Positions 1,116-60,925 of a stretch of DNA of 64,000 nt are shown in pieces (position 1 is the stretch's first letter; each line of letters starts with the position of its first letter). The stretch comes from Microbacterium sp. TPD7012 (lineage in GTDB: Bacteria; Actinomycetota; Actinomycetes; Actinomycetales; Microbacteriaceae). The notes under the pieces were generated by a model. That model was given only the letters and a program-made list of their open reading frames with translations, made no database searches and was not told the origin of the DNA. The stretch is taken from assembly GCF_003075395.1 (NCBI RefSeq), contig NZ_QDFV01000010.1, forward strand, positions 1 to 64,000. Reading direction: 5' to 3'. A program made the translations under genes and the position numbers.

Positions 1116-2929
1116 CCACGACAGACATCCGCGTCGCCTTCGACAGGGCGGCCCAGAAGCGCCGGTCCGGCCTGTTCCGCCGTTTCCTCCGGCACCCCGG
1201 AGGCTTCATCCCGTTGGCGATCTTCGCGGCGGTCGTGCTGGTCGGCGTCCTCGCCCCGCTTCTCGCGCCGATGGATCCGAACCTCGTCGATCTCGCCGCG
1301 GCGAAGGCCGCGCCGGGACCGGAGCACCTCCTCGGCGGGGACTCCACCGGCCGCGACATCCTGTCCCGTCTCATCTACGGCACGCGCACCACGCTGTGGG
1401 GGGCTCTCATCACGGTCGTCACGGCGCTCGTGCTCGGCGTGCCGTCCGGTGTGGCGGCCGGCTACTTCGGCGGCGTCTTCGACCGCGTCGCGACGTGGAT
1501 CAGCGATGCGCTGCAGTCGATCCCCGGCATGATCATCCTGCTGGTGGTCGCCGCAGGCAGCCGCAACAACTTCGAGCTGCTCATGGCGACGGTCGGGGTG
1601 TTCATGGTGCCCGGCTACTTCCGGATCTCGCGCTCGCAGACGCTCGCTGTGCGGGGCGAGCCGTACATCGACGCCGCCCGCGTCTCCGGACTGTCGGACG
1701 CGCGCATCATCTTCCGCCACGTGATCAGAGCGGTGTATCCGCCCGTGATCATCCAGACGGCGCTGACGGCCGGCATCGCGATGGGCATGCAGGCCGGGCT
1801 CCAGTTCCTCGGTATCGGCGACTCGAACGTCCCCAGCTGGGGCGCGATGATGCTCGAGGGCTTCCGCCTCATGCTCACCTATCCGCTCATGCTGCTCTGG
1901 CCGTCGGCTGCACTCGGGCTCACGATCGCCGTCCTGGCGATCATGGGGTCGACCCTCGCCGAGCTGGTGCAGGTGCGCACCCCACGGGCGTCGCGTCGGA
2001 AGGCGGATGCCGTCGTCGCTGGGCCATCGACCTCGGCCACGGGCAGCGCCCAGCACGAAGCCGCGCACGCCGCGCTCCGCATCGACAACCTCCGTGTCGC
2101 GCACGTCACGCCGAACGGCGAGACCGAGGTCGTGCACGGTGTCACCCTCGACATCGCGCCCGGCGAGGTCGTCGGGATCGTGGGGGAGTCGGGGTCGGGC
2201 AAGTCGCAGACCGTGTTCTCGGTGCTCGACCTGCTGCCATCGACAGGGCGAGCGACGGCCGATGCGATCTGGGTGGGCGGCAAGGACATCAGCCGCGCGA
2301 GTGGGAAGCAGCGCCACGCGCTGCTCGGGCGGGAGATCGGCTACGTGCCGCAGGAGCCGATGAGCAACCTCGACCCGTCCTACACGATCGGCCACCAGCT
2401 CATCGAGCCGCTCCGGCGGACCCACGGGCTGAGCCGGGTCGAGGCGAAGGAGCGCGCTCGAGCCATGCTCGTCCGCGTCGGCATCACAGATCCGATCCGC
2501 GTCCTGCGCAGCTACCCGCACCAGATCTCCGGCGGCATGGCACAGCGCGTCCTGATCGCCGGCGCGATCGCGGGCAAGCCCTCGCTGCTCGTGGCCGACG
2601 AGCCGACGACCGCGCTCGACGTCACCGTGCAGGCGGAAGTGCTCGAGCTCCTGCGTGAGCTGCAGGCGGAATACGGGATGGCGCTGCTCATCGTGACCCA
2701 CAATTTCGGCGTCGTGGCCGACATCTGCGATCGCGTCATCGTGATGCGCGGCGGCGAGATCGTCGAAGCGGGCCCGGTCGACGAACTCTTCGCGACGCCG
2801 GCCGCCGACTACACGCGCGCCCTCATCTCGGCGTCACTCGACGATGTCGCCGGGCGCGCCGAACTCGACCGCGCCGATCTCGACCGTGCCGAGCGCCCGG
2901 TCGTGCAGACCACGGAGGTGACGGCATGA
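1112..2929 (+). CDS. Fused peptide ABC transporter permease and ATP-binding protein (DppC-DppD fusion)
   Basis: A 605-residue two-domain protein. Residues about 1-285 form a DppC-type permease with an EAA loop near residue 185 (DAARVSGLSD). A polar Ala/Ser-rich linker (about 290-315) leads to a DppD-type ATPase with Walker A GESGSGKS near residue 359, ABC signature SGGMAQRV and Walker B LLVADEPTTALD near 492-503. The ATG overlaps the preceding stop, and its own stop overlaps the next gene. In most bacteria these are two genes; the fused architecture is known in actinobacterial peptide transporters. It would join membrane channel and one motor subunit of the importer in a single chain, with the next gene giving the second ATPase. 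Confidence 0.9.
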   Translation: MTTTDIRVAFDRAAQKRRSGLFRRFLRHPGGFIPLAIFAAVVLVGVLAPLLAPMDPNLVDLAAAKAAPGPEHLLGGDSTGRDILSRLIYGTRTTLWGALITVVTALVLGVPSGVAAGYFGGVFDRVATWISDALQSIPGMIILLVVAAGSRNNFELLMATVGVFMVPGYFRISRSQTLAVRGEPYIDAARVSGLSDARIIFRHVIRAVYPPVIIQTALTAGIAMGMQAGLQFLGIGDSNVPSWGAMMLEGFRLMLTYPLMLLWPSAALGLTIAVLAIMGSTLAELVQVRTPRASRRKADAVVAGPSTSATGSAQHEAAHAALRIDNLRVAHVTPNGETEVVHGVTLDIAPGEVVGIVGESGSGKSQTVFSVLDLLPSTGRATADAIWVGGKDISRASGKQRHALLGREIGYVPQEPMSNLDPSYTIGHQLIEPLRRTHGLSRVEAKERARAMLVRVGITDPIRVLRSYPHQISGGMAQRVLIAGAIAGKPSLLVADEPTTALDVTVQAEVLELLRELQAEYGMALLIVTHNFGVVADICDRVIVMRGGEIVEAGPVDELFATPAADYTRALISASLDDVAGRAELDRADLDRAERPVVQTTEVTA

Positions 2930-3759
2930 CCGCCCTGCTCGAAGTGGAAGACCTCGTGGTCGACTACGGCCACGGACGCCGTGCATTCCGCGCACTGCAC
3001 GGGATCTCCCTCGACATCGCGCCGGGCGAGTGCCTCGGGCTGGTCGGGGAATCGGGCTCCGGCAAATCGACTCTCGGCAAGGCGATCCTCGGACTCGCGC
3101 CGGTCACCGGCGGCTCCATCCGCTTCGACGGTCACGAGATCAGCCGCCTCGGCGGTCGGGGCAGACGTGCGCTCGCCGACGATGTGCAGGTCGTGTTCCA
3201 GGACCCGTACGGCTCACTGAACCCCGCGATGACGATCGGCGACATCCTGGCCGAACCCCTGCTCACCACGGGCATCGGCGCGAAGGCCGCCGAGAGCCGG
3301 GTGCGCGACATGCTCGATCGCGTGCGGCTGCCCGAGTCATCCATGGATCGGTATCCGAGCGAGTTCTCGGGCGGACAGCGTCAGCGCGTCGCGATCGCGA
3401 GGGCGCTCGTGCGCGGACCTCGCCTCATCGTGTGCGACGAGCCGGTCAGCGCGCTCGACCTCACGACGCAGGCGACCATCCTCGACCTGTTCATCGAGCT
3501 GCAGCGAGACACCGGCGTCGCGTACCTCTTCGTGTCGCATGACCTCGGCGTGGTGCGCCGGGTCTGCCACCGGGTCGCGGTCATGTACCGCGGCGAGATC
3601 GTGGAGATCGGCGACGGGGAACAGGTCACGCGGTCGCCACAGCATCCGTACTCCGAGCGGCTGCGCCTCGCCTCTCCGGTCGCAGACCCCGTCGCCCAGC
3701 GCGGACGACGTGCCGAATGGCTCGCTCTCCGGGAGGTGCGCGATGCGGCGGTACGGTAG
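2926..3759 (+). CDS. Peptide ABC transporter ATP-binding protein (DppF-like)
   Basis: A 277-residue ATPase, the second motor subunit of the importer. Walker A GESGSGKST is near residue 41, the signature SGGQRQRVAIARAL near 148, Walker B LIVCDEPVSALD near 167, and the switch His is in FVSHDLG. The length is shorter than typical DppF (about 320), and the C-terminal oligopeptide-transporter extension is short. The start overlaps the stop of the fused permease-ATPase (ATGA), so all three transporter genes form one translationally coupled operon. A 47-bp gap separates it from the TetR gene. Confidence 0.9.
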   Translation: MTALLEVEDLVVDYGHGRRAFRALHGISLDIAPGECLGLVGESGSGKSTLGKAILGLAPVTGGSIRFDGHEISRLGGRGRRALADDVQVVFQDPYGSLNPAMTIGDILAEPLLTTGIGAKAAESRVRDMLDRVRLPESSMDRYPSEFSGGQRQRVAIARALVRGPRLIVCDEPVSALDLTTQATILDLFIELQRDTGVAYLFVSHDLGVVRRVCHRVAVMYRGEIVEIGDGEQVTRSPQHPYSERLRLASPVADPVAQRGRRAEWLALREVRDAAVR

Positions 3760-30699: not shown

Positions 30700-30758
30700 C
30701 TCCGGAGCTTCTCCTGATCGGAGAGAGCGGCAGACAGAAGGCGCGCGCAGCTGCGCCT

Positions 30759-30900
30759 CGTGCTGCCTCCCTTCCGGACTAGCGAGGTCTCCCTCGCATC
30801 ACCGTCGGTCCCGGAATTCCACCGGATCGGCATCTCGGCTCGGCCGAGACGCTCGCGGACTGTCACCGCCGGTTCGGATTCTCACCGACCCCGGAGCACG
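30759..30900 (-). ncRNA. FMN riboswitch (RFN element) of the riboflavin operon
   Basis: On the minus strand the conserved RFN blocks appear in order: GGGGTCGGTGAGAATCCGAA, ACCGGCGGTGACAGTCCGCG, GGTGGAATTCCGG, GACCGACGGT and AGTCCGGAAGGGAGG. The P1 stem pairs CGTGCT (30895-30900) with AGCACG (30759-30764). It binds FMN and lowers expression of ribD-ribE-ribBA-ribH. The ribD start is about 80 nt downstream. Confidence 0.96.
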
Positions 30901-30912
30901 TTCAATGCTCTG

Positions 30913-59068: not shown

Positions 59069-59089
59069 CACCTCGGCTCAGCCCGTCCG

Positions 59090-59120
59090 AACAGCCCTCC
59101 CTCTGCCGGGGAGGGCTGTT
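59090..59120 (+). terminator. Terminator after ndh
   Basis: A perfect 12-bp stem, AACAGCCCTCCC with GGGAGGGCTGTT, and a 7-nt loop, 22 nt after the ndh stop. Confidence 0.85.
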
Positions 59121-59165
59121 CGCGTTCCAGGGCGCGGCGTGGAGGTCACGCATAGCTCGGCTCGG

Positions 59166-59171
59166 TAGTGT
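59166..59171 (+). promoter_or_regulatory. Putative -10 of the structured leader
   Basis: TAGTGT lies seven bases before CAAGG, the 5' arm of the leader fold, so transcription would begin at the fold. Confidence 0.45.
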
Positions 59172-59177
59172 CGAGCG

Positions 59178-59275
59178 CGCAAGGGGAGTACTCCCGTCTG
59201 CGGCGGAGTCGTCATTACGGACACGAGATCGTGTCCCGGCCCGTCGGCCCGAGAGGGTGGAGGAGACCTTGGCAC
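59178..59275 (+). ncRNA. Structured leader, possibly of the yybP-ykoY (Mn) riboswitch class
   Basis: CAAGG pairs with CCTTG as an outer stem. Inside are GGGGAGTACTCCC, GTCGTCATTACGG, a perfect hairpin GGACACGA-GA-TCGTGTCC (59219-59236), the CCCGGCCCGTCGG block, and GGAGGAGACC before the closing arm. The GGGGAGTA and AGACC elements in this order resemble the conserved loops of the Mn-sensing yybP-ykoY family as seen before actinobacterial TerC genes. It lies before a hypothetical gene, and the match is from memory, so the class is tentative. Confidence 0.45.
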
Positions 59276-59360
59276 CCGCTCTGCGGGCTGCCTCGACTCT
59301 TGCCGTCGTCCGACGTCGTGGAATCCCGGTGGTCCGCACCGCTCCACGAAAGGGACCATC

Positions 59361-60257
59361 ATGGGAAAGCTCTCCCGCTTGATCGGCATCGCCTCCGAAG
59401 CCCTGGAGAAGAACTCCGGGTCCGCGCGCAGCGGCAGTCCCGCTGACGGATCCCGGTCATCGACCGATTGGGGCGGCGTGCTCCGCGGCGCCGTCGACGC
59501 CGTGCGAGGTCCGTCGGAGAGTGCCGGGCACCACGCAGAACGCCGGGTGCCCGCCCCGCCGTCGCCTCCCGCCGCCGCAGACCCGTACGCGCCGCCGCCC
59601 GCTCCCGGTGCGACGGCAGCGCACGTCGGATCGGCCTCGGGAGCTCGAGCGGCCACGACAGGGACCGACGCCGATCGAGCCGCGATCGCGCGCTACGACT
59701 ACCTGATGAAGACCGCAGATCCGCAGCGCATCGAGCAGATCCATCGTGACGCGTTCGCCCGCCTGACGCCGCAGCAGCGCACCCTGGTCGAGGAGCGCAT
59801 GCGCGCGGAACTCGCACCGGGCGAGCGCCCGCACTCCTCCTCGCCGGAAGACCTCGCGCGCGCGGCCGGACGCGCCGAGGCCCTGCGTCCGGGTCGGATG
59901 CGCGGACTCCTGTCCCGCGTCCGCGGGAGCGGGACGGGCGGTGCCGCGGTCCTGGCCGGAGGCGCGGCGGTCGGCATCCTCGGTGCGGTCGCGGGCGGCG
60001 CGGTGCTCAGCACCGTCGCTGCTCCGCTCCTGGAGCAGGCTGCGGGGCTCGGCGTCGACTTCAGCGCTCTGGCAGAGGGTGTCGATCTGGAGGCGCTCGC
60101 CTCGGGCGTCGATGTGGAAGCGTTCACCGGCGGTGCGGAGGAGCTGATGGGATCCGCCGGCGAGGCGGTGTCGGGGCTCGGCGAGACCGCGACCGGCTGG
60201 GGCGAGCGTCTCGGCGACCTCGGGATCCCGGGGCTCGGCGACATCTTCGGACGATAG
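59361..60257 (+). CDS. Hypothetical protein with glycine-rich hydrophobic segment (298 aa)
   Basis: Not recognised. The N-terminus (MGKLSRLIGIASEALEKNSG) is amphipathic, then a disordered Pro/Ala-rich region (30-105), a charged helical region (about 110-175, DPQRIEQIHRDAFARLTPQQ), one Gly/Ala-rich hydrophobic stretch (about 195-225) of glycine-zipper type, and a repetitive acidic tail (VDLEALASGVDVEAF). The ATG at 59361 has weak AAGGGA upstream. It follows a structured leader and precedes the DedA gene by 11 bp, so the two may be co-expressed. The protein could sit in the envelope. No function is supported. Confidence 0.7.
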   Translation: MGKLSRLIGIASEALEKNSGSARSGSPADGSRSSTDWGGVLRGAVDAVRGPSESAGHHAERRVPAPPSPPAAADPYAPPPAPGATAAHVGSASGARAATTGTDADRAAIARYDYLMKTADPQRIEQIHRDAFARLTPQQRTLVEERMRAELAPGERPHSSSPEDLARAAGRAEALRPGRMRGLLSRVRGSGTGGAAVLAGGAAVGILGAVAGGAVLSTVAAPLLEQAAGLGVDFSALAEGVDLEALASGVDVEAFTGGAEELMGSAGEAVSGLGETATGWGERLGDLGIPGLGDIFGR

Positions 60258-60268
60258 GCGGGGATCGC

Positions 60269-60925
60269 ATGACGGATGCCGACCACGGCTTCACCGGCCT
60301 GAGCGGTTTCGCGGCCGACGTCCTCACCGCACTCGGAGACATCGGTGTCGGGGTGCTCGTCTTCCTCGAGGTGCTGGTGCCGCCCATCCCGAGCGAGGTG
60401 ATCCTGCCGTTCGCCGGCTATCTCAGCCAGAGCGGACAGCTGACCCTCGGATGGCTCCTCTTCTGGAGCACGCTCGCGTCGTGGCTGGGAGCGCTGCTCC
60501 TCTACGGGCTGGGATCGGCCATCGGCATGGCGCGGGCGATCCGGCTGCTCGCCGGCACGCGCCTCGTCAGCAGGTCCGATCTCGAGCGGGGCGCGGCCTG
60601 GTTCGCGCGGAGCGGCGCGTGGACCGTGCTCGTCGGCCGCATGGTGCCGGGCGTGCGCAGCCTGATCTCGATCCCGGCCGGGGCATCGCGCATGAATCTG
60701 CTCACATTCAGCGTCTACACGATCCTCGGCAGCGGGCTGTGGAATGCGCTGCTCCTGGGAGTGGGCGCGGCGCTCGGCACGCAGCACGAGCAGCTCGAGC
60801 ACTACCTCGGATACCTGGACTACGCCGTGTACACGGCCATCGCGATCGCACTGGTGGTCCTGGTCGTGCGACGGATACGCGAGGCGGCCGCTGCTCGACG
60901 GGAACCTGCCGTGATCGACGAGTGA
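60269..60925 (+). CDS. DedA family membrane protein
   Basis: A 218-residue membrane protein of the DedA (SNARE-associated) family. FLEVLVPPIPSEVILPFAGY carries the conserved acidic and Pro motif of helix 1, and GRMVPGVRSLISIPAGASRM the second re-entrant motif with conserved Arg. Members support membrane lipid carrier recycling and proton homeostasis. It has 4-5 helices and a basic cytoplasmic end. It lies 11 bp after the hypothetical gene, likely in one unit. Confidence 0.92.
   Translation: MTDADHGFTGLSGFAADVLTALGDIGVGVLVFLEVLVPPIPSEVILPFAGYLSQSGQLTLGWLLFWSTLASWLGALLLYGLGSAIGMARAIRLLAGTRLVSRSDLERGAAWFARSGAWTVLVGRMVPGVRSLISIPAGASRMNLLTFSVYTILGSGLWNALLLGVGAALGTQHEQLEHYLGYLDYAVYTAIAIALVVLVVRRIREAAAARREPAVIDE

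Follow-up and report, generated by a model that had tools for sequence, protein, structure and literature searches.

A probable alx-type yybP-ykoY manganese-class leader upstream of a gene family tied to terC in Microbacterium

The window analyzed here is a 64,000-nucleotide stretch of the genome of Microbacterium sp. TPD7012 (contig NZ_QDFV01000010.1, positions 1 to 64,000, forward strand). Within it, a structured leader lies between a gene assigned by Pfam to the pyridine-nucleotide-disulphide oxidoreductases and a gene starting at position 59361 (the 59361 gene), which is in turn followed by a DedA-like gene. The features of the locus are as follows.

59089-59121, perfect GC-rich hairpin of 13 bp, between the upstream oxidoreductase gene and the leader.
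59166..59171, + strand, -10-like hexamer TAGTGT, the putative own promoter of the leader, with TANNNT conserved upstream.
59180..59271, + strand, aptamer core from P1.1 to P1.1, by alignment, pair counts and the match to R1, the covariance model described below.
59180..59184, + strand, P1.1 5' strand CAAGG, pairing with 59267-59271 (98% of cells paired).
59183-59190, GGGGAGTA, read from the sequence.
59185..59190, + strand, L1 5' side GGAGTA, invariant in 40/40 leaders.
59191..59194, + strand, P1.2 5' strand CTCC, pairing with GGAG at 59259-59262.
59201..59211, + strand, P3.1 5' strand, pairing with 59237-59246, with changes on both sides in 7/11 pairs.
59212..59218, + strand, L3 loop TCATTAC, of which TCA is invariant in 40/40 leaders.
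59219..59236, + strand, P3.2 perfect hairpin (59219-59225/59230-59236), with changes on both sides in 5/6 counted pairs.
59247..59258, + strand, P4 hairpin GCCC-GAGA-GGGT (59247-59250/59255-59258), 98.1% of cells paired.
59262-59268, GGAGACC, read from the sequence.
59263..59266, + strand, L1 3' side GAGA, invariant in 40/40 leaders.
59267..59271, + strand, P1.1 3' strand CCTTG, which pairs with the ribosome site in relatives and not in the window's clade.
59271..59292, + strand, GC-rich hairpin directly 3' of the aptamer, predicted by single-sequence folds.
59348..59357, + strand, ribosome binding region GAAAGGGACC, from the sequence, before the ATG at 59361.
59361..59378, + strand, start codon region, a possible partner of the 5' half of the aptamer (59183-59197 and adjoining bases) in a putative OFF state, by folds and a synonymous-codon control.
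59361..60257, + strand, target gene of 298 aa from a family of unknown function, with a predicted helical core at about residues 100-189 and a Gly/Ala-rich stretch at about 190-222.
60269..60925, + strand, DedA-like gene (VTT domain), 11 nt downstream of the 59361 gene.

An earlier note on this DNA, made from the letters alone, had described a -10 element, an outer stem, a loop, an internal hairpin and a GGAGACC block in the leader. All of these are present in the sequence, and for the outer stem the comparison with relatives backs a short P1.1, CAAGG at 59180-59184 with CCTTG at 59267-59271. A TANNNT hexamer stands at -17 or -18 from GGGGAGTA in 41/41 distinct upstream regions; a strict sigma-70 scan found no promoter at the leader. 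Because the hairpin at 59089-59121 separates the leader from the upstream gene, the leader probably forms its own transcription unit. That hairpin may terminate the oxidoreductase transcript, and no T run follows it. About 33 to 26 nt before GGGGAGTA, inspection of the same 41 upstream regions and of their consensus shows a GCAYAGG-like motif that is conserved in part; it sits upstream of the -10, is not a standard -35 and is possibly a regulator site. Elsewhere in the window, an FMN riboswitch on the - strand (30757-30902) scores 74.4 bits, above its Rfam gathering score.

The 59361 protein resists assignment. No Pfam or NCBIfam match was obtained up to E 1, a sequence search of the PDB gave nothing better than E 0.31, and a fold search returned no match (best E 5.2); the protein has one PHROG match, at E 0.089. 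Six of its relatives have matches below curated cut-offs only (best E 0.018 and 0.005). The structure model has a mean pLDDT of 65 and is confident only at about residues 121-180. Ten residues are invariant in 32 aligned sequences, nine of them in the helical core (A108, Y112, E125, H128, A131, L135, Q139, R140 and A166), and all 24 of the 24 named relatives found with the protein are from Microbacterium. The description in the earlier note of an unrecognised product followed by DedA is thus confirmed, and the Gly/Ala-rich hydrophobic stretch at about 190-222 may be what it took for a glycine zipper. DedA is the next gene in most of the window's clade, being missing after the gene in L010, L011, L030 and L035 (L numbers denote loci), and dedA is probably cotranscribed with the 59361 gene. 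A different arrangement is seen in another family of the order, where DedA precedes a 59361-family gene and there is no riboswitch (L206, 524-2202).

To describe the leader itself, we rely on an alignment of 40 distinct leaders of 59361 orthologues, one of which (L045) precedes terC and not the orthologue directly. The aptamer is conserved and it covaries. Standard pairs occupy 95.9% of cells, a figure that falls to 34-51% (at most 51.4%) when the partners are slid by 1-3 columns, and changes on both sides are found in 15/30 pairs. The covariation score was reached by 0/500 shuffles and the number of pair types by 12/500, and RNAalifold, unprompted, recovered almost this structure, differing in a one-base shift of P1.1. 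Support differs among the helices. Beyond the many compensated pairs of P3.1 and P3.2, P4 has two pairs with changes on both sides, P1.2 has a single compensated change with 99.4% of cells paired, and P1.1 has no covariation at all, so P1.1 and P1.2 are backed by invariance and pairing rather than compensation. Taking P1.1, P1.2, P3.1, P3.2 and P4 together, we counted the covariation support looked for in the yybP-ykoY class as present. Folded alone, the leader only modestly beats its shuffles (z -2.3, with 5/200 shuffles equally good), and evidence from single-sequence folding is therefore weak. Conservation of the stems in orthologous leaders, a check set beforehand, proved very strong, with the aptamer near-invariant before the 59361-gene orthologues in Microbacterium.

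The architecture points to the yybP-ykoY class, as the earlier note had suggested by likening the leader to those before actinobacterial terC genes. The L1 signature of the class, GGGGAGUA...GAGACC, lies between P1.1 and P1.2, with loop positions invariant in 40/40 leaders. Among 48 wider matches, 45 keep GGGGAGTA exactly, 44 have a GAGAC-like 3' side (the other four have GAAGAC) and 47 carry GTCA in the L3 region. According to PMC6754395, the crystal structures show an adenosine of L1 (A10 in Xanthomonas oryzae) in A-minor contact with a P3.1 C-G pair, and in L3 the N7 of an adenosine (A41 in Lactococcus lactis, A48 in X. oryzae) is a ligand of Mn2+. By our own placement, the counterparts of these would be A59187, the pair C59210-G59238 and A59214, respectively, each of which is invariant in 40/40 leaders. 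The X. oryzae and L. lactis aptamers are four-way junctions, whereas the window element is a three-way junction in which the P2 arm is absent and P1.2 and P3.1 are joined by a short linker only.

The relation to alx is a direct result of the model search. R1, a covariance model built solely from the 40 leaders, matches the window at 59176-59276 with 102.1 bits, the window leader being itself among its source sequences. It finds the E. coli K-12 alx leader both when run with filters off (42.2 bits, E 1.8e-9) and under default filters (50.6 bits, E 3.1e-11). The E. coli mntP leader scores 9.1 bits (E 0.5), though it is aligned at L1. Since alx aligns to R1 without P2, we treat that arm as a variable feature of the class. 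The alx leader has the same L1, L3 and P3/P4 layout as the window element, with a short linker in place of P2, and its partner is of the terC family, the one met most often behind the genus matches examined. It differs in a longer stretch after P3 (34 nt unshown in the R1 alignment) and in its expression platform, and the window copy has the 59361 gene and dedA behind it instead. In E. coli, alx lies before the gene of a TerC-family Mn exporter and is responsive to both Mn and pH. A further likeness, made by description, is the Corynebacterium glutamicum terC leader (cg2157), which has a different target gene but shares the class label and the terC partner; in PMC3890552, it is labelled yybP-ykoY with 49.13 bits in an older Rfam and has an observed transcript start.

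The Rfam scan, another check set beforehand, gave the opposite outcome at first sight: RF00080, the yybP-ykoY model, has no match at the window leader in scans at gathering and permissive thresholds (E up to 10). Yet RF00080 also misses the experimentally known E. coli alx leader (L139, 1872-2004) in a library-wide scan up to E 10, and it matches none of 15 loci that R1 finds, so we do not take its silence as a test of class. In the permissive scan, as in those of the E. coli regions and the 15 R1 loci, E was counted over 4227 families; it was counted for RF00080 alone in a search of the whole genome of the window's strain. That search gave three weak matches of 8.3-13.1 bits, and since none coincides with the three R1 copies of the genome, they are probably chance. 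Even the E. coli mntP leader, at 41.6 bits, stays below the RF00080 gathering score of 45 bits. When both models are run at E 0.01 on one set of 246 phylum genomes, R1 matches 42 of them and RF00080 matches 10 (one above cut-off). The two models meet at L200, which scores 49.1 bits with RF00080, above cut-off, and which R1 recovers in register at that position with 25.9 bits. Three more places matched by RF00080 score 21.1 bits (a single arm), 14.3 bits and 11.3 bits with R1. The mntP-like form described by RF00080 shares GGGGAGUA and GAGACC with the window element and differs in its P2 arm, missing here, and in L3, where the TCATTAC of the window departs from the RF00080 consensus. As R1 finds alx and RF00080 does not, and both meet at L200, we assign the window element from its sequence to the alx-type yybP-ykoY RNAs, not to RF00080 as currently modelled. 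The earlier note was prepared to give up its proposal only if a model match and stem conservation were both lacking, and with conservation this strong the proposal stands.

Evidence for a link to metal transport comes from the distribution of the element. R1 matches occur in 147/149 Microbacterium genomes and 42/246 phylum genomes (E 0.01). The genome of the window's strain has three copies, the one in the window and two before terC genes, with Pfam TerC confirmed for L118. Among 40 further genus matches, which were hand-picked from those listed and are not a random sample, terC lies behind 28 and the 59361 family behind 12, as judged with seven query proteins over the 350 nt that follow on the same strand. 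Outside the genus, 35 R1 loci divide into 21 with terC, 8 with a P-type ATPase gene and 6 with neither, the last including Na/Ca exchanger genes (L093 and L100) and an M50-peptidase/CBS gene (L101). At L101, the riboswitch (1501-1594) is followed by the gene of a CBS-domain M50 peptidase (1632-2828), an unusual partner. L182 has a second R1 match on the opposite strand, of 45.4 bits. The association of the element with terC thus holds at both other copies in the strain's own genome and at genus and phylum loci.

The 59361 family is drawn into the same association. At the orthologue loci L028-L053, the riboswitch is directly upstream in 23/26; L045 has the order riboswitch-terC-gene, given by L120 as well and seen in one Microbacterium, and two of the 26 (L037 and L043) have no riboswitch at the orthologue locus. 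In a partly overlapping set (L004-L027), the riboswitch is present in 24/24. At L014, L027 and L051, terC and the 59361-family gene are divergent, each with its own riboswitch, and as L014 and L051 are apparently one contig, this arrangement stands for two genomes. On the Arthrobacter plasmids L204 and L205, an R1 match of 78.2 bits is followed by terC and a 59361 relative, two genes that share 4 nt. The two arrangements are placed as follows.

L014, 2647-2749 (- strand) and 2867-2967 (+ strand), terC and the 59361-family gene diverging from a pair of back-to-back riboswitches.
L204, riboswitch at 1563-1670 and genes at 1703-3555, one overlapping operon on an Arthrobacter plasmid, with L205 likewise.

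The link does not extend to the whole superfamily. Relatives from outside the genus were examined at 19 more loci, where no R1 match was found beyond one of 16.4 bits (E 0.063), and most of these relatives share only the core stretch with the window protein. At 20 loci with mostly distant relatives, a strong R1 match was found only at L159, the others staying below 19 bits. Given these relatives without R1 matches, the riboswitch link belongs to the Microbacterium and plasmid members. At L159, the riboswitch (1798-1898) lies before a family member (2139-2458) that matches in two frames and is apparently a broken frame. In Bacillus subtilis, TerC exports Mn2+ and supplies exported enzymes with Mn2+, according to PMC12096827. 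From its regulation and neighborhood, the 59361 product most likely works with TerC, aiding Mn export or metal handling.

How the aptamer might act on its gene can be approached through the sequences that it could sequester. In relatives across the phylum, the P1.1 3' strand is complementary to the ribosome site. For 26 phylum loci, chosen by hand from the 35 outside the genus, pairing of this strand with the locus's own ribosome site averages -15.5 kcal/mol, compared to -11.5 with the sites of other loci and -8.1 with shuffled ones. It beats 95% of shuffles in 21/26 of these loci and in 25/32 with six of the nine left-out loci added later; L102, L106 and L128 had no clear start codon and were left out. 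This complementarity fits an ON switch in which Mn2+ keeps P1.1 closed and the ribosome site free. In the clade of the family with short leaders, 15/23 beat their shuffles (-9.45 versus -5.63), and the sites of other loci pair equally well (-9.27) because the ribosome sites are nearly identical. The genus terC leaders show weak pairing, in 1/7 after three of ten loci were lost to a motif filter and in 7/30 in a redone test with the anchor misplaced in at least L184 and L191.

The window's own clade behaves differently. Its P1.1 pairs with the ribosome site in 0/15 leaders, and still in 0/15 with a wider strand, and a platform in which the 3' strand of P1.1 covers that site was accordingly rejected for this clade. 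A local hairpin of GGTGGTCC with the ribosome site, seen by eye in part of the clade and not all, was dropped. The distance from aptamer to start codon is 82-95 nt here versus 22-47 nt in the other clade. In the unconstrained consensus fold of the window clade, P3 and P4 are kept and the L1/P1.2 strand pairs with the start codon and the first codons; in the fold of L028, given in window coordinates, 59183-59197 pairs with 59361-59375, together with three outer pairs. Against random synonymous codings, start-region pairing in the window clade averages -22.05 versus -18.04, with 6/15 at 0.05 or better, a median rank of 0.09 and 0.010 for the window, the 15 being closely related. The same control gives nothing in the short-leader clade (2/23). 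The serine codon in the start stretch is TCC in 36/37, compared to 29.9% of later serine codons, and this bias is found in both clades; like the start-region values, these counts come from related sequences and are not independent. On these folds, start-codon masking may be the substitute platform of the window clade. In L028, the masked fold is about 17 kcal/mol better than the fold with P1 closed, so the switch would have to be kinetic, with the aptamer made first and Mn2+ having to hold it against the more stable masked fold. A precedent is alx, in which a less stable active form is set by cotranscriptional folding, as reported in PMC3874183.

Taken together, we consider it probable, at roughly 0.82, that the leader is a cis-acting manganese-class switch of the yybP-ykoY class and compact alx type, which turns on the 59361 gene and leaves its start masked without Mn2+. 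We infer manganese binding, the ON direction and the OFF structure of the window clade, and the sequence of events would run as follows. Transcribed from its own promoter, the leader would respond to high cytosolic Mn2+ by docking of L1 and L3, which would lock P1.1 and P1.2 and turn ON the translation of the 59361 gene, dedA probably included. Without Mn2+, P1 would open and the initiation region would be masked. In most of the phylum relatives examined, the P1.1 3' strand released in this way could cover the Shine-Dalgarno site by pairing. For the window's clade, the likeliest replacement would be that the 5' strand of L1/P1.2 pairs with the start codon and the codons directly behind it. A more far-reaching version, in which the 59361 family is a Mn-homeostasis factor that partners TerC and is switched by Mn2+, and in which the aptamer's own Mn-binding strand masks the start codon in the window clade, is a tentative possibility that we would not yet favor; if true, the platform of this clade would be unlike the ribosome-site masking of its relatives.

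Several of these observations could be read in other ways. The long spacer of the window clade (82-95 nt compared to 22-47) and its lack of ribosome-site pairing would also fit a Mn2+-sensing aptamer that acts on transcription, for example through Rho, rather than on the start of translation, and Rho-dependent control beside the riboswitch is reported for mntP in PMC11647493. We think this doubtful, as a scan for intrinsic terminators found no terminator-like site in the region and the consensus alternative fold masks the start codon. The signal itself might be alkaline pH or another divalent ion acting on the same scaffold, as first proposed for alx, the closest validated relative by model, which PMC3874183 describes as a pH-responsive element acting via pausing. 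Such a signal appears improbable here, given that the counterparts of the Mn-contacting and A-minor adenosines are invariant in 40/40 leaders, that terC is the commonest gene behind the element and that alx is also described, in PMC12096827, as Mn induced through the yybP/ykoY riboswitch.

The two remaining alternatives concern whether the leader functions at all. It could be a relic of a duplicated terC promoter region that no longer regulates the 59361 gene, as might be suggested by the same element before terC in the strain's own genome and by the missing platform pairing in the window clade. Compensatory changes that keep the stems across diverged orthologues, core loop residues conserved in 40/40 leaders and retention of the element in several gene arrangements make a relic very improbable. 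The structure could also be a functionless product of chance in a sequence this rich in GC, which would agree with a single-sequence fold modestly above shuffles and with the silence of Rfam; we regard this reading as already refuted by the covariation, and the full-length matches across the phylum and the match to alx leave it a negligible probability.

The yybP-ykoY class is already known, also in actinobacteria. As far as can be told, the novelty lies in the target family with its connection to terC, and possibly in the platform at the start codon; in a search at the level of literature titles, no manganese riboswitch in Microbacterium or before the 59361 family was found. The current RF00080 model overlooks a manganese-class branch that includes alx and many actinobacterial terC leaders, and because it overlooks this alx-type branch, manganese regulons are probably underannotated. 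The riboswitch ties manganese handling to a protein family without a Pfam or NCBIfam match, and the operons shared with terC form an independent second line for a manganese role of that family. The element thus points to a new player in manganese handling.
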